Origin: Polyangia bacterium
GTDB taxonomy: Bacteria; Myxococcota_A; Polyangia; Polyangiales; Sandaracinaceae
Reading direction: 5' to 3'
Assembly: GCA_030426845.1 (NCBI GenBank)
Contig: JAUHXR010000006.1
Span: 1 to 64,000 of the forward strand
Length of the DNA stretch: 64,000 nt
Made by a program: the position numbers and the translations under genes. The stretch's first letter is position 1. Every line of letters starts with the position of its first letter. Below the pieces are notes generated by a model. That model was not told where the DNA came from and did not search any database. It saw only the letters and a program-made list of their open reading frames with translations. Below, piece by piece: positions 13,014 through 64,000 of this stretch.

Positions 13014-13377
13014 GGGGGCGAAACGGTTTCGACGGGGACGGAGAAGCCCTGTTGGCGTGTCGCCGGACTGAGTAACGGCGTCAAAAACATCTCGGAACCC
13101 ATAAGTGCGAACGACAACGCGCTTGCTCTCGCTGCTTAGTCGCAGTTAGGGAGCCGTCAAAGGCTGGAGCCCGTCAGCGCTCCACCGGCGGCGTCATTGA
13201 GCTGACTGGCCAGATCCCACGTGACCCGGGGTGACGGCGAGACTTTAGGGTCGCTAGCGTCGCGATAGCCCGTCTGCGGGCGAACGCGTCGCGAAACACA
13301 AATCGCAGACTACACACGTAGATGGCAGTGTTGCGGACTGTTCGCGGACGCGGGTTCGACTCCCGCCGCCTCCACTA
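13014..13377 (+). ncRNA. ssrA: tmRNA (trans-translation RNA)
   Basis: The 5' end GGGGGCGAAACGG and the 3' end (CGCCTCC plus discriminator A at 13374) pair to form the tRNA-Ala-like acceptor stem. The T-arm GCGGGTTCGACTCCCGC is intact. The tag frame at 13107-13139 reads ANDNALALAA and ends in TAG. tmRNA with SmpB rescues stalled ribosomes and marks the product for proteolysis. The bases after the discriminator are CTA, not CCA, consistent with the end having been rebuilt by phage insertion. A GACAAT box at 13002-13007 is suitably placed to be the -10 element. Confidence 0.95.
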
Positions 13378-14630
13378 GGAATACGGGGATCAAACCGATC
13401 CCCGCCACCATTCCCGCCACCATCGAGCGATGCGCGCGGTCCCGCGGGGTCGCCGGCCGCGAGCTCGAGATGGTGGACCTGCGCGCGCTCCACCTCGAGG
13501 CGCAGGCAGGACACCGCCTCGCACATCGCCGACCACTCCCAGTCGGTGTAGCCGTCGAGCACGTCGCCCTTGGCGTTGTGCGTGACGCGCTCGAGCACGT
13601 CGCGGCGCGCGCCGTCCGAGCGAGCGAGGCTGATGAACGCGTGCCGGAACGCGTGGCAGCCGCGCCCCCGCTTCGACCCGCCGACGCGGTGCGGGATCCC
13701 CGCGCGGGCGAGGTCGCGGTAGAGCGCCTTCACCGCCTGGTTCTGCGTGCGCGGCTCGCCGGTCTTCGGGTCGGGGCAGAGCCAGTCGTCCGCGCCCGGG
13801 TGCCGGCCGTAGAGGGCGGCGAACCCCTCGCGGCGCCAGCGCTCGAGCGTCGCCCGGAGCGCGGGGTGCACGGGCACGATCCGCTCGTGCGTCTCCTCGC
13901 CGTCGTCGGTCTTGAGCGGCTGGTCGTCGTACTGCGTGTCGACGGTCAGCGCCGCGAGCCCGGCCGCGTCCTCGTCGAGGTCGCGCCAGCGCCGCCCGCT
14001 CGCCTCGCCGAGGCGCAGACCAGCGAGCCCCATGAGCGCGTAGAAGACCCGCCGGTGCTCGGCGATCGCGGGGTCGGTCATGAGCTGCCAGAGCTCGTCG
14101 CGGCTGAAGCGCGGCTTCTTCTTCTTGCCGACCTTCGGGAGCTTCCCGCGCGGGAGCGACGCGGGGTTCGCGCCGATGAGCTCGTCGAAGCGCCCGAGCT
14201 CGAGGATGGAGTGCAGCGCGCCGTGGACGTTGCGGACCGTCTTGGCGGCGAGCCCGCGACGCCCAAGCTCGGTCACGAGGTCCGCGACCATCCGCGGCGT
14301 GAGGTCGTCGAGGGCGACGTCGCCGAGCGTCGGCGCGACGTGGTTGCGGTAGCAGGCCTCGGCGTCCGAGAGCGAGCGCATGCCGTCGGCCGCCTTCTCG
14401 GCTGCCCATCGGGTCGCGAGCTCGTCGAGCGTCATCCGTGCGCCGGGGGCCTCCGGTCGGTAGGTGCCCGCCTTCACCTCGGCGAGGCGCTGGGCGCGGA
14501 CCGCGCGGGCGCGCCGGCGGCTCGGGCCGACGATCTCGAAGCGACGGGCGCCGCCCTGATCGTAGAAGTTGATCTCGTAGACGCGCCGCCCGCGGATGGT
14601 GCGCTGTCGGATGCCGGTGTCGGTCGTCAC
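13254..14630 (-). CDS. int: Tyrosine recombinase (phage integrase)
   Basis: The 458-residue product starts at the GTG overlapping the upstream stop (GTGA). The catalytic set is complete: Arg206 (GLAGLRLGEA), His326 and Arg329 (CHAFRHAF), His351 (VTHN) and nucleophile Tyr361 (DGYTDWEW). An N-terminal core-binding domain (about 65-165) and a basic arm-binding-type region precede it. It inserts and excises the prophage at ssrA. The last about 40 codons are read through the tmRNA gene on the opposite strand (CVVCDLCFATRSPADGLSRR at the end), so the C-terminus depends on the integration site. Confidence 0.93.
   Translation of the reverse strand: MTTDTGIRQRTIRGRRVYEINFYDQGGARRFEIVGPSRRRARAVRAQRLAEVKAGTYRPEAPGARMTLDELATRWAAEKAADGMRSLSDAEACYRNHVAPTLGDVALDDLTPRMVADLVTELGRRGLAAKTVRNVHGALHSILELGRFDELIGANPASLPRGKLPKVGKKKKPRFSRDELWQLMTDPAIAEHRRVFYALMGLAGLRLGEASGRRWRDLDEDAAGLAALTVDTQYDDQPLKTDDGEETHERIVPVHPALRATLERWRREGFAALYGRHPGADDWLCPDPKTGEPRTQNQAVKALYRDLARAGIPHRVGGSKRGRGCHAFRHAFISLARSDGARRDVLERVTHNAKGDVLDGYTDWEWSAMCEAVSCLRLEVERAQVHHLELAAGDPAGPRASLDGGGNGGGDRFDPRIPSGGGGSRTRVREQSATLPSTCVVCDLCFATRSPADGLSRR
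13341..13377. other. attL: attL, 3' end of ssrA
   Basis: The prophage begins directly at the 3' end of ssrA and its tyrosine integrase is the adjacent gene. This is the usual arrangement for integration into the T-arm/acceptor end of tRNA or tmRNA genes. The exact crossover core cannot be fixed because the matching attR was not found in the window. Confidence 0.7.
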
Positions 14631-14899
14631 CCTGCTCTCCTCGTCTCGCTCCACTCGAGGACATCCTCGGCCGCGAAGCGTACCTCGCGCGGGCCGAGCC
14701 GCCTCGACGGGAGGCCCTCCTCGCGTGCCCAGCGCAGCACCGTGCGGCGGTCGACCCCGAGGCGCTCGCCCACCTCGTCGGCCGTCAGCAGGCGCAGGCG
14801 CGGCCCCGCCTCGCGGGCGAGCACGCGCTCCACCTCCTCGCGGACGATGCGCCGGATGAGCTCCTCGTCGGCGACGATCATCACGGGTCGGTCAGACAT
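14627..14899 (-). CDS. Excisionase-like HTH protein
   Basis: The 90-residue product has a MerR/HTH_17-type fold in its C-terminal half: LLTADEVGERLGVDRRTVLRW, then 'LPSRRLGPREVRFAAEDVLEW'. The N-terminal half is a charged helix (IRRIVREEVERVLAREAG). Its position directly upstream of the integrase, with a 4-base overlap, matches Xis-type recombination directionality factors. The role is inferred from the fold and position. Confidence 0.7.
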   Translation of the reverse strand: MSDRPVMIVADEELIRRIVREEVERVLAREAGPRLRLLTADEVGERLGVDRRTVLRWAREEGLPSRRLGPREVRFAAEDVLEWSETRRAG

Positions 14900-23472: not shown

Positions 23473-23682
23473 TCAGTCCGACTGACGGGATCGCGCGCCG
23501 GGCCGAAGAGCGGCCGCGCTTCCTGCCAGCAGCAGCAGCGCAGTAGCCATGCCGATCGCTGCCACGGCGACGCGCACCTCGACCGCGGACAAGTTATTGA
23601 CCAGGCTCCAAGCAGTGGTGGACAAGGCAACGAAGCCCAGAACCGCAAGAACCACTCCCCAGCCGCGCCTACTCATTGGCAT
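23473..23682 (-). CDS. Small two-helix membrane protein
   Basis: The 69-residue product has two membrane segments (GWGVVLAVLGFVALSTTAW and VAVAAIGMATALLLLAGSAA) and a basic C-terminus. The ATG at 23,682 or the one at 23,676 could be the start; both overlap the upstream gene. It lies with the next membrane gene inside the lysogenic operon in DNA of lower GC. The position suggests a superinfection-exclusion or lysogeny-expressed cargo gene, but the function is unknown. Confidence 0.6.
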   Translation of the reverse strand: MPMSRRGWGVVLAVLGFVALSTTAWSLVNNLSAVEVRVAVAAIGMATALLLLAGSAAALRPGARSRQSD

Positions 23683-24550
23683 CGCTCTCCATCGCAGTCT
23701 TCTGCTGAGCGGTTTCCAGCGCAAGCTCCTCCAAGTCGTCTGGCTCTGACGGCGCCCGCAGCTTGAGTGTCTCCGCCGGGTGTGGAGCGTGCGGTAGCGT
23801 GCTCTGGCCGCTCCGTGGGGGCGCTGGCATTGCCTCGAGCGGCGGTTCTTCAAGCACGCCGGCTACCCACGACCCGATCGCAGCAACTATTCCCAGTACG
23901 ATGAACGCCACCGCCGACGGGTCGACAGCTGCCCCGATCATGCTCACGATGGCGAGAAGACCGAGCAGGTGTTTCGCTGCTCGAAACCCGCTGATCGACC
24001 AGCGACCAATCCTCAGCCGCCAGTCGGAGGTCGCGTGCGTGGAAGCAGTAGTAGTTCCCGGCGGCTCACGTTCTTCGGGGGCATCTCGATAGGTGCCAAC
24101 GATGTCTGAGGCAACAGACGCCAAGGCTGCAGCCTGTTCCTCGTTGCTCGTTAAGGGCCGCTCTCGCATCTCGCGAACTCGCTGCCTGAACCTTTCTGCA
24201 AGCGTCGCAACGCGAACGATCTGGTTTGACAGATCGGTCTCAGCCTGTGCCAGTTCAGCCGCAACGCTGTCGGCAATCTCGTAGAGGACGAGGGCGTTGG
24301 GAGATCCCGCCTCGGCCCACTCCTTGCCCGTCGAACGAAGACCCGCCTCCGACTCCCTCAGAGTCTCCGCCCGCGACGCCATCGAGCGGCTGGCGTGCAC
24401 CTCAACGATGAGCATCTCGGCGTGCTGCCGAAGCATGAACTCGATGTCGGGCGACAAGCCGCCTGCCTGCTCAAGAACGCCCTTGAGGAAGTTCTCGGTG
24501 CTCGAGAGAACTGTGCGGATCTTATCCGCAGCAGAGGATGGCGAGTTCAT
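23669..24550 (-). CDS. Membrane protein with N-terminal helical domain, possible exclusion factor
   Basis: The 293-residue product has a helical, coiled-coil-prone N-terminal domain (1-155), then a hairpin of two membrane helices (about 195-209 and 212-232) and an acidic cytoplasmic-type tail. Codons are less GC-ending than in neighbours (many AAC/GAT/CGA/ATT choices), so it looks recently acquired. It is coupled to the repressor gene by ATGA and would be expressed in the lysogen. No family was recognised. Confidence 0.6.
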   Translation of the reverse strand: MNSPSSAADKIRTVLSSTENFLKGVLEQAGGLSPDIEFMLRQHAEMLIVEVHASRSMASRAETLRESEAGLRSTGKEWAEAGSPNALVLYEIADSVAAELAQAETDLSNQIVRVATLAERFRQRVREMRERPLTSNEEQAAALASVASDIVGTYRDAPEEREPPGTTTASTHATSDWRLRIGRWSISGFRAAKHLLGLLAIVSMIGAAVDPSAVAFIVLGIVAAIGSWVAGVLEEPPLEAMPAPPRSGQSTLPHAPHPAETLKLRAPSEPDDLEELALETAQQKTAMESDANE

Positions 24551-25125
24551 TCAGGCGTCTCTTCGGGTCCCCGCAGCCTCGTGACCCGGCCACCCTCTCG
24601 CTGACGCCGCTCCCGCGCCTCCTTCGACTCCGGCAGCTCGCGGTCGGCCGGGCTCGCCTTGAAGTGGAGCGACCGACGCGCGCGAGCGATCGCGCGGTCC
24701 AGCATCTCGCGGAAGTCCTCGGCGGCGAGGCCGTCGCGCCCGTCGGAGTAGTGGCGGATCGACTGGATCTCCTCCTCGAGCACGCCCTCGCCGCGGGCGT
24801 ACTCGACGTACCCCTCGTCGACGAGCTCGAGCCAGGCCGCGCGGTCTTCGTGCTCCACGTACGAGTCCGGTGAGCCGAGAAAGTCGCGGTAGCGTGGGGT
24901 GTCACCAAGGCTCGGGTCGCTGAAGAACCGGTCGGCGATGCGCAGGCGCCGCCGGGCCTCAGCGAGAACCCGTGCGCCAACATCACGGTGCCCCTCGCGA
25001 CGCAGCTTCGAGGCGTAGCCCTTCGCCATCCCGAGGCGAGCCTCGGCCTTCGCCTGGCTCCCGAGTTCCTCGGAGAGCTGGTCGATCAGGATGAGGAATC
25101 GCTCGGTGCGGAGCGCGCGCGCCAT
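24547..25125 (-). CDS. Predicted phage repressor (HTH)
   Basis: The 192-residue product has an N-terminal helix-turn-helix region (LSEELGSQAKAEARLGMAKG, then YASKLRREG, about residues 14-41). The C-terminal region is helical and charged, without the Ser/Lys autoprotease site of LexA/CI repressors. It is the first gene leftward from the three-operator cluster and shares an operon with an ImmA-type protease, so it is the best candidate for the lysogeny repressor. The ATG chosen directly borders the operator; an in-frame ATG upstream would lie inside it. Confidence 0.7.
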   Translation of the reverse strand: MARALRTERFLILIDQLSEELGSQAKAEARLGMAKGYASKLRREGHRDVGARVLAEARRRLRIADRFFSDPSLGDTPRYRDFLGSPDSYVEHEDRAAWLELVDEGYVEYARGEGVLEEEIQSIRHYSDGRDGLAAEDFREMLDRAIARARRSLHFKASPADRELPESKEARERRQREGGRVTRLRGPEETPE

Positions 25126-25130
25126 CGTGC

Positions 25131-25191
25131 TGACAAGTGTCACACACGAACCGCTGACATTTGTCGTTGACACGAGTGCTGACAGAAGTCA
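25131..25191. promoter_or_regulatory. OR: Right operator cluster with divergent early promoters
   Basis: Three palindromes of the form TGAC-N4-GTCA occur: TGACAAGTGTCA (25,131-25,142), TGACATTTGTCG (25,155-25,166) and TGACAGAAGTCA (25,180-25,191). They are centred 24 and 25 bases apart, as in lambda OR. A TTGACA -35 box at 25,167-25,172 points right, towards the Cro-like gene. The first operator lies 5 bases from the repressor start codon, so autoregulation is likely. Confidence 0.85.
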
Positions 25192-61140: not shown

Positions 61141-61481
61141 CCCCGCGCCTGCGCGCGCGCCCGCTCGAGCGCCTCGCCGACGCCGACCCGGCGTGGGTCG
61201 ACTCGTCGGGCGGCCGGCGCGGCGTGATGCTGCAGTTCGAGTGCCCGATCCACGAGAGCGACGCCCATGGCGACACCTGCCGGATCGCGGTCCCGCTCGA
61301 CCCGCCGCTCGACGGCGGCGCGCCGATCGAGCGCGGGTGGCGCCGGAGCGGGGGCGAGGACTTCGACTCCGTCACGCTCGCGCCGTCGATCCGCCGGCTG
61401 GGCGAGAGCGACGGGACCGGGTGTCGGTGGCACGGCTTCGTCCGCGGCGGCCGCTTCGAGACCTGCGGGGACTCCCGGTGA
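61137..61481 (+). CDS. DUF6527-like phage protein
   Basis: The 114-residue product has the pattern of this phage family: VMLQFECPIHESDAHGDTCR, then a GWRRSGGEDFDSVTLAPSIR segment and CRWHGFVRGGRFETC, with possible metal-binding Cys/His residues. Its function is not known. The start is a GTG overlapping the upstream stop. Confidence 0.6.
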   Translation: MTPRLRARPLERLADADPAWVDSSGGRRGVMLQFECPIHESDAHGDTCRIAVPLDPPLDGGAPIERGWRRSGGEDFDSVTLAPSIRRLGESDGTGCRWHGFVRGGRFETCGDSR

Positions 61482-61714
61482 GCGCCCGCCCCTCGGTCCG
61501 GTGGGTCTGCGACCGCTCCGCGCAGGAGTCGGCGGACCTCGCGCTGCCCGCCGCGCGCCCCGGGGCGCCGATCCCTCCCCCGGAGGTCCCGCCGGACTGG
61601 GCGCGGATCAACATCATGCCGATCCTCGACGGGGTCGTGGACCTCTGCCCGGCGTGCCGGTCGGCGCTCGCCCGCTGGTACGGCGAGGCCGAGCTCGCGC
61701 AGGGGGCCGCGTGA
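61478..61714 (+). CDS. Small protein with CxxC
   Basis: The 78-residue product starts at GTG (GTGA overlap), includes a VDLCPACRSALARWYGEAEL motif that may bind zinc, and is coupled to the next gene. It has no recognised family. Confidence 0.45.
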   Translation: MSARPSVRWVCDRSAQESADLALPAARPGAPIPPPEVPPDWARINIMPILDGVVDLCPACRSALARWYGEAELAQGAA

Positions 61715-62586
61715 GGACGCGCGAGCAGGTCGCGGAGGCCGTCGCCCGAGAGATCGGCGCGCGCGGCGCGAAGGCCGTCGAGGACCCGTGGGGCACCGGC
61801 CTCGCGGTCGCCGATCGGCTCGGGTTCGACCCAATCGCGAAGCCCGCGCCCGCGCGCGGGGAGTCGTGGCTCTTCGTTCGCCAGGTCGACGACGTCCCGC
61901 CGGAGGTCGCGGCCCGCTTCGACGGGGTGATCGTCGCCGCGCGCGTCTACCGCGCGGGCCGGGTGCGGCTCGCCAACCAGGACGCCTCGTGGTTCGCCGC
62001 GGTGCGCGCAGCCAGGGTGCGGGTCGCGGTCTTCGACTGGATGCTCCCGCCCGGGACCTGGGCGCAGGGCCTCGCGGCGTCGGTCGCGTGGGCGAAGTCG
62101 GTCGGCGCCGAGGCCTACTGCCTGAACGTCGAGCCGCGCCCCGCGACGTACCCCCACGGCCGGTGGGAGGGGCAGCACGACGAGGCCGCGCTGTACGCGT
62201 CGACCGCGCGGGATCTCTGCGACCGGCGCGGGCTGCAGCTGTGGATCACGAGCTGGGCGAAGCCGTCGCAGCGGAAGACGTTCCCGATCCGCGAGTTCGT
62301 CCGCCCCGCGCACGTCTGCATCCCGCAGCCCTACGAGGTCCACCACCCCGGCGGCTCGGCCTACGTCGAGGCGGTGATCGCGGAGTGGCGGGGGTACGGG
62401 GCGAAGGAGGTCTGGATCGGGCGCGGCGCCCACGAGATCGACCGGTCCGACAACGACGCGTGGCGGACGCCGGCGGAGATCGCGGCGCACCGGAGGAGCA
62501 CGCCGGCGGGGGCGACCGAGGTGTGGTGGCCCCCCGCGGGTAGCCTCGCGCGCCGGCCGGCGGTCGTCGCGGCGATGGTGAGCTAG
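61711..62586 (+). CDS. TIM-barrel glycoside-hydrolase-like protein, possible endolysin
   Basis: The 291-residue product starts at GTG. The pattern VRVAVFDWMLPPGTWAQGLA, SVAWAKSVGAEAYCLNVEPR, 'YASTARDLCDRRGLQLWITSWAKPSQ' and KEVWIGRGAHEIDRSDNDAW fits a (beta/alpha)8 hydrolase fold, with an acidic residue at a strand end (LNVEP). As the last gene of the lysis-type block it is the best candidate for the endolysin. The linkage cut is not known. Confidence 0.6.
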   Translation: MRTREQVAEAVAREIGARGAKAVEDPWGTGLAVADRLGFDPIAKPAPARGESWLFVRQVDDVPPEVAARFDGVIVAARVYRAGRVRLANQDASWFAAVRAARVRVAVFDWMLPPGTWAQGLAASVAWAKSVGAEAYCLNVEPRPATYPHGRWEGQHDEAALYASTARDLCDRRGLQLWITSWAKPSQRKTFPIREFVRPAHVCIPQPYEVHHPGGSAYVEAVIAEWRGYGAKEVWIGRGAHEIDRSDNDAWRTPAEIAAHRRSTPAGATEVWWPPAGSLARRPAVVAAMVS

Positions 62587-62879
62587 GGCAACGGAGGAGG
62601 CTGGGGAGGAGCCAGGATCTGTTCGATCTCGGCCCACCCGCCGCTCCTGATGAGCCCTTCGACCGCTCTCACTGCTCGCGTGGCGTCGGCGAGGGCGCGT
62701 CCAGGCGGCTCGTCCTGCGAGAACACTCGGACGTGGACCTTGTGCCCGTCGGAGTCCTCGGTCCAGACCGTCCAGGTTCTGCGCTCCGGGTATGTGCCCC
62801 CCACTGGTCTGCCGGCCTTCCGCACCCTGATTGCTGCTTCCCCTCGCGGGTCGTGCGTGGCGGTCGTGTCGTCAGGCAT
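62583..62879 (-). CDS. Small hypothetical protein on the reverse strand
   Basis: The 98-residue product is basic at the N-terminus (GEAAIRVRKAGRPVGGTYPE), then RTWTVWTEDSDGHKVHVRVF and a helix. It ends 4 bases inside the stop of the endolysin-like gene on the other strand. It belongs to the leftward right-end cluster. No function was recognised. Confidence 0.5.
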   Translation of the reverse strand: MPDDTTATHDPRGEAAIRVRKAGRPVGGTYPERRTWTVWTEDSDGHKVHVRVFSQDEPPGRALADATRAVRAVEGLIRSGGWAEIEQILAPPQPPPLP

Positions 62880-62985
62880 CCGTGCATGCTACCCGATCAG
62901 TCGGGATGCCGTCGTCGGCGACGGCCGGGCAATCCCGCGGGCGTGGTACCTGGCCGGGGGCGCGGCTGCCGAAGACCGCCGCGCG

Positions 62986-63930
62986 TCACCGCATCGCCTG
63001 TTCCAAGGTTTGCAGCAGACCGGGGGGGGCGGACGGTACGGCGTCGAGATCCATGAGGTGTTGGTAGTCGACAGCAACAACTCTGCCGTTAGACATGCCC
63101 AGGCCCCACCAACGCGCGACTATGGCGTGGGGCGCGCTCGTGCCGGGAATCGATGCGAACTCCCGCTGAAGGAGTGGCTCGAGATCGATCGTTCGAATCT
63201 CGCAGAGATGCTTGAGCGGAACCACGGCCAAGAACGTCACCACGTTCAGGCCGAGGACCCCGTCCTCGGAGCTTCGGCGTCGCAGGGCCGGGGCTGCCTC
63301 CGCCACAGTACTGGCGAGTTGCCGTCCGAACCACAGGCCGTCGCGTTCCGGGTTCCAGCTTGCGGCGAACGTCTTCATCTTCGCCTCGAAGCGCACGCGC
63401 CCCCCTTGATGGGTCGCCCACTCAACATCGAGCCCGGGCGATCCCGCTCCGAAGACCGTGAGGCCCTGCCCGCCTGCGAGAGCACATCTGGCCGCCGTGT
63501 AGAGTGTGCCGAAGCTCCGAGGCTGCGGTAGGAACGTGTCTGAGCCGGTTTGGTCCGGCGCTAGAAGCTCGTCCTTGACGAAGCTGGCGTGGATGTCGGG
63601 CTGTCCGATACCTGAACTTCCGCAAATGGCCCGGACAGACCACGCGGCTACTCGGCCGAGGTAGAGGTCGACCATCGTAGGGAACGGGTGAGGCACCGGG
63701 GCGGCCGGGTCGATGGTGCCATCGCGGATTCCCCGGCGCCTCACTGCCTCGCTCCGCTGCGCCGCGATCCAGCGGGCAAGCGGTGATGCAGGGCGGAGCT
63801 TGCTTGGCGCGTGGTGCTCGGCGAACCACTCCAGCACGTCAGCGTCTTCATCCCACTCAGCGGGAGGCACGCTTTCGGACATGATGGGCATCTGCTCAGT
63901 CGAGGGTGGAGCCGCCCAACGAAAGCTCAC
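62986..63930 (-). CDS. Orphan PD-(D/E)XK-type nuclease
   Basis: The 314-residue product starts at the GTG overlapping the upstream stop (internal ATGs are alternatives). A nuclease signature is seen as GLDVEW (Asp168) and VRFEAKMK (Glu182-x-Lys184), the D...ExK active site of restriction-type enzymes. A helical N-terminal region could be the DNA-recognition part. Codons are less GC-ending than phage neighbours, suggesting acquisition. It may be the cutting part of a restriction or anti-phage unit with the upstream gene. Confidence 0.6.
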   Translation of the reverse strand: MSFRWAAPPSTEQMPIMSESVPPAEWDEDADVLEWFAEHHAPSKLRPASPLARWIAAQRSEAVRRRGIRDGTIDPAAPVPHPFPTMVDLYLGRVAAWSVRAICGSSGIGQPDIHASFVKDELLAPDQTGSDTFLPQPRSFGTLYTAARCALAGGQGLTVFGAGSPGLDVEWATHQGGRVRFEAKMKTFAASWNPERDGLWFGRQLASTVAEAAPALRRRSSEDGVLGLNVVTFLAVVPLKHLCEIRTIDLEPLLQREFASIPGTSAPHAIVARWWGLGMSNGRVVAVDYQHLMDLDAVPSAPPGLLQTLEQAMR

Positions 63931-64000
63931 GCCGCCCCCGGTCGTTGCAGCGTCCCCGGCGCATAGACCACCCGCGGCGCGGTCTCCGTCCCGATCACGC
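63927..64000 (-). CDS. 3' end of a further leftward gene (partial)
   Basis: The reading frame to the right edge encodes VIGTETAPRVVYAPGTLQRP-GAA and then stops in a GTGA overlap with the nuclease gene. The two are therefore one operon. The rest lies outside the window, so it cannot be identified; a methyltransferase partner for the nuclease would fit but is speculation. Confidence 0.5.
   Translation of the reverse strand, partial: VIGTETAPRVVYAPGTLQRPGAA

Follow-up and report, generated by a model that had tools for sequence, protein, structure and literature searches.

The open reading frame (ORF) at the right end of the window, the window being the whole 64,000-nucleotide stretch analysed here (positions 1-64000 of contig C413, in a genome of 9.4 Mb), is an orphan cargo gene housed in the arm of a prophage. 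The reading favoured here, at a probability of roughly 45%, is that of a lone, recently acquired cargo gene whose 314-aa product is most likely a nuclease of the PD-(D/E)XK type, harming the DNA of competitors or of the infected cell. A 60-kb prophage residing in the tmRNA gene would have gained the gene as a single "moron", at an insertion point immediately after an unrelated HTH gene of its variable right arm. The product would most likely be a metal-dependent enzyme in which D168 and E182 hold the metal and K184 positions the attacking water. Its expression in the lysogen would lead to DNA damage, whether in competing phages or plasmids or in the infected cell, and a role in phage competition is plausible. 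Features of the prophage and its right arm are collected in Table 1.

Table 1. Features of the ssrA-integrated prophage and its right arm. Positions are those of contig C413, on which the window occupies 1-64000.
Feature	Position	Strand	Details
tmRNA gene (ssrA)	13014-13375		tag ANDNALALAA; prophage integration site; ARAGORN
attL	13354-13374	+	3' end of tmRNA gene, GTTCGACTCCCGCCGCCTCCA; exact 21-bp repeat at attR
Tyrosine integrase	13254-14654	-	prophage left end; PHROG phrog_1, E=2.1e-40
98-aa ORF	62583-62879	-	3' of the 314-aa ORF; GC3 0.788
Endolysin-like gene, 3'-end remnant	62911-62965	+	91% identity over 55 bp to contig C301
5.7-kb block	62966-68711		314-aa ORF, HTH gene, 104-aa gene, a 209-aa gene, and the two genes at 65636-67103
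314-aa orphan ORF	62986-63930	-	GTG start; PD-(D/E)XK-like residues
HTH gene, MerR/excisionase-like	63927-64988	-	353 aa; 3' end (63927-64000) in window; weak HTH matches
104-aa gene	65053-65367	-	upstream of HTH gene
DUF3560 gene and ribbon-helix-helix gene	65636-67103	+	inside the 5.7-kb block
Metallo-beta-lactamase-fold lipoprotein gene	68741-70486	+	apparent lipobox LAVLLAGC
Two small membrane-protein genes	70251-71667		after the metallo-beta-lactamase gene
N6/N4 methyltransferase	72667-73554	-	adjoining attR; strong N6/N4 type II match
attR	73807-73827		identical to the 21-bp attL

The contig continues for approximately 10 kb beyond the window, to position 73967, and it is in this continuation that the right end of the prophage is located. 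The 21-base stretch at the 3' end of the tmRNA gene recurs there exactly, and is absent from the rest of the contig. An integrase gene marks the left end, its frame as listed overlapping the tmRNA 3' end on the opposite strand, and genes for a primase/helicase, a head protease, a major head protein and a tape-measure protein are also present. With att repeats in ssrA, an integrase and phage genes, the element is therefore a prophage, of approximately 60.5 kb. An earlier reading of the window, made from the sequence only (the sequence-only reading), had anticipated a temperate phage with its attR to the right of the window; this is borne out, the ORF lying in a variable cargo arm approximately 10 kb inside attR.

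The variability of this arm is evident from comparison with another, related prophage of this genome, part of which is found at the end of contig C301 (15270-19000). Common to the two are a late gene (61301-61692, 85%) and the blocks 68712-68851 and 71731-71884, along with the 55-bp remnant of an endolysin-like gene standing between the 98-aa and 314-aa ORFs; a different gene occupies that place in the C413 prophage. The 5.7-kb block carrying the 314-aa ORF is, judged from this comparison, inserted or swapped cargo, because C301 has approximately 245 bp with one 61-aa ORF in its place. An Rfam search of the right arm gave no match.

The 314-aa ORF is probably a real gene, because it is the sole stop-free frame of the six and also has the top codon score. 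The GTG at which it starts shares the sequence GTGA with the stop codon of the HTH gene, confirming the overlap described with an upstream gene severed by the window edge; alternative ATG starts are available at 63891 and 63882, either of which would abolish the overlap. Codon composition is foreign, with a GC3 of 0.749 that is level throughout (range 0.73-0.76) and far under that of neighbouring genes (0.929 +/- 0.027 for 15 other genes). The strand switch that had been described past the last late gene is found, that gene ending at 62586, while the accompanying shift to less GC-ending codons holds for the 314-aa and 98-aa ORFs and fails for the coupled HTH gene, whose GC3 is 0.944 with its C-terminal extension included. 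The leftward genes at the right end are thus not one cluster of common origin, because the coupled gene is without the low-GC3 trait. As for the 98-aa ORF, relatives are absent from 57 genomes, and an assignment to fvmRadSAM-pep (PF20007, an FtsH ternary system-associated peptide family) was rejected, the Pfam match (E=0.004) scoring 17.8 bits, short of the cut-off of 27.

Relatives of the 314-aa ORF were sought at several depths. Overlapping draws comprising 97 close genomes, 379 from the phylum, 184 from the order and 318 from the class yielded none. A scan of 84,980 species genomes and four scans of viral contigs (three with further ORF segments), all of which detect close relatives only, likewise returned none, as did phages and plasmids. 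Weak phmmer matches (E 6e-4 to 6e-3) from the phylum set, in eight other genomes, were set aside as chance; each of the four whose alignments were inspected was either an unrelated protein (luciferase-like, NfeD-like or desaturase-like) or a spurious frame of short length. Plasmid matches at E>1 were similarly dismissed. Autonomous, of foreign composition, missing from the sister prophage and positioned inside the att sites in a variable arm near attR, the ORF resembles prophage cargo (moron) genes, among which are single-gene phage-encoded defence genes, but it differs from known single-gene defence cargo in having no known relative.

The nuclease assignment is a motif-level guess, with about even odds that it is correct. 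D168, E182 and K184 are at the positions claimed for them (GLDVEW...VRFEAKMK), forming a motif II Asp and a motif III (D/E)xK with a suitable spacing of 14 residues, in hydrophobic surroundings typical of these motifs as described for PD-(D/E)XK enzymes (PMC1913061). Single-sequence AlphaFold2 gave a model of low confidence (pLDDT 35) that is uninformative as to the fold; D168 and E182/K184 are tentatively placed in it on two neighbouring strands followed by a long helix, a weakly predicted strand-strand-helix order of the kind seen in the restriction endonuclease-like superfamily. The ORF differs from described families of the superfamily in showing no recognisable resemblance to them in sequence or structure: Foldseek with the same model returned probabilities of at most 0.04 and no meaningful match, searches of Pfam, NCBIfam, PADLOC and PHROGs gave zero matches, and no credible one was obtained among PDB sequences at any threshold used. 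The earlier statement that the protein matches no known restriction family was thus correct. A missing family match is compatible with PD-(D/E)XK membership, because families of this superfamily keep the core fold and motifs yet elude sequence searches (PMC1913061).

The main competitor to the favoured reading, and a real possibility, is that the motif is accidental and the product an orphan cargo protein with a different fold and function, for example in lysogenic conversion or regulation. That the protein has neither family nor homologue nor usable fold is consistent with this, as is the frequency of the bare motif D-x(8-25)-[DE]-x-K, which is present in 29% of shuffles of the sequence. Against an accident stand the 14-residue spacing and the hydrophobic positions flanking each of the three residues, which fit motifs II and III; the fuller pattern GhDh[DE]...hxh[DE]hK arises in only 0.04% of shuffles, though it was written post hoc with the sequence already seen. 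A bolder version of the nuclease reading is unlikely; in it, the ORF would found a PD-(D/E)XK family not yet described and would serve the phage as a one-gene effector of defence, perhaps rendered conditional by the coupling to the HTH gene.

The sequence-only reading had further proposed that the coupled genes form a restriction or defence unit, possibly of a new type. This is not supported: the gene coupled to the ORF is part of a different module, and the methyltransferase lies far off. The immediate neighbours of the 314-aa ORF, where a methyltransferase or sensor had been looked for, are the HTH gene and the 98-aa ORF. The HTH gene belongs to a separate conserved pair with the 104-aa gene, found in three other genomes without the nuclease-like ORF, and differs from that ORF in codon composition (GC3 0.944 vs 0.749). 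Phage DNA methyltransferases are often orphan. It is accordingly very improbable that the ORF belongs to a restriction-modification system, or to a new anti-phage system of several genes, with the sole methyltransferase, adjoining attR, as its modification arm: that gene shares the minus strand and the prophage arm with the 314-aa ORF and has a strong type II match, but it is 8.7 kb away with plus-strand genes between, it matches phage DNA methyltransferases (phrog_67), and the ORF itself has no PADLOC defence match. It is also improbable, if less so, that the ORF is the last gene of a functional counter-defence or phage-competition operon, in which the 104-aa protein would deplete SAM or a signal derived from it, regulation would fall to the HTH protein, and the nuclease would attack DNA left without protection. 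The three genes do lie on the same strand in tight order with the GTGA overlap, and the predicted structure of the 104-aa protein is nearest to a SAM lyase; on the other side, the nuclease is missing beside the pair in 3/3 other genomes, the GC3 values of the ORF and the HTH gene are sharply different, and a strong hairpin separates the 104-aa and HTH genes.

Relatives of the HTH gene are found in five genomes, G006 (52% identical in alignment), G026, G366, G410 and G168, and in all four genomes that have the 104-aa protein (this one, G006, G366 and G168) it directly follows the 104-aa gene. Conservation of the pair is judged on these four Myxococcota genomes only, two of the pairs being in phage-like elements. 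No relative of the 314-aa ORF is present in the fetched neighbourhoods of the pair in G006, G366 and G168, so that the HTH/ORF pairing is not conserved, and over the DNA compared between C413 and G006 similarity is essentially confined to the pair (70% over approximately 1 kb). Because the pair occurs without the nuclease-like ORF and the similarity to G006 essentially stops at its borders, the pair is a self-contained module, which the ORF follows as a passenger in a single genome. The hairpin in C413 is GC-rich with a 12-bp stem (64988-65053), and another lies between the two genes in G006 (L019:10159-10229), with TTTT after the stem; a 16-bp perfect hairpin is present 5' of the 104-aa gene in C413. 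The G006 pair is itself located in a phage-like element, flanked on one side by a SIR2-like gene (L019:11762-12835; PADLOC SIR2, E=4e-9) and on the other by a TPR gene and a small ORF that has HNH-like residues. A match of the HTH gene to mad1 of MADS (E=0.0026) covers the HTH motif only and was rejected.

Phage SAM lyases are counter-defence enzymes, and the 104-aa protein may be related to them. Its model is of good quality (pLDDT 86, pTM 0.79) with a predicted PII/CutA-like fold, and the top PDB match is the phage SAM lyase Svi3-3 (6zm9; E=1.4e-4, TM 0.73), followed by CutA1-type proteins. Annotated phage SAM hydrolases are among its viral matches, with weak E-values. Svi3-3 requires Glu69 and uses Gln104, located in the loop before the last strand (PMC7877911), and this Glu and Gln are retained in SAM-AMP lyases (PMC12255297). 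In the 104-aa family, Q90 is invariant (4/4) in the loop after helix 2 and before the last strands, and early in strand 3 there is an acidic residue (D58, replaced by E in G168); the correspondence with Svi3-3 was drawn by eye from secondary structure, without superposition. Likeness to phage SAM lyases and SAM-AMP lyases is thus predicted in fold and in these two residues, while differing from phage SAM lyases in the accompanying HTH gene and in having no sequence similarity to T3 SAMase. The SAM-lyase reading is one of fold, because hhalign with T3 SAMase gives no sequence support (probability 0.6%), and it is a lead, not an assignment. The 104-aa/HTH pair is nevertheless a candidate counter-defence module, anti-restriction or anti-signalling in nature, and as an unexpected by-product from just outside the window it is the more tractable lead, one that predicts such a module.

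Should the 314-aa protein be a nuclease, it would represent an unplaced lineage in a superfamily for which sequence searches often miss members, and the right arm of ssrA-integrated myxobacterial prophages would be a place to seek phage-carried defence genes. Elsewhere in this arm, the metallo-beta-lactamase-fold protein is matched in PADLOC by the MBL domains of both LmuA and RTasMBL, and C301 carries other genes where C413 has the metallo-beta-lactamase and membrane-protein stretch. Towards the left of the prophage, a minus-strand gene pair at 23669-25173, neither member of which matches Pfam or PHROG, includes a 293-aa member (23669-24550) with an unusually low GC3 of 0.71.
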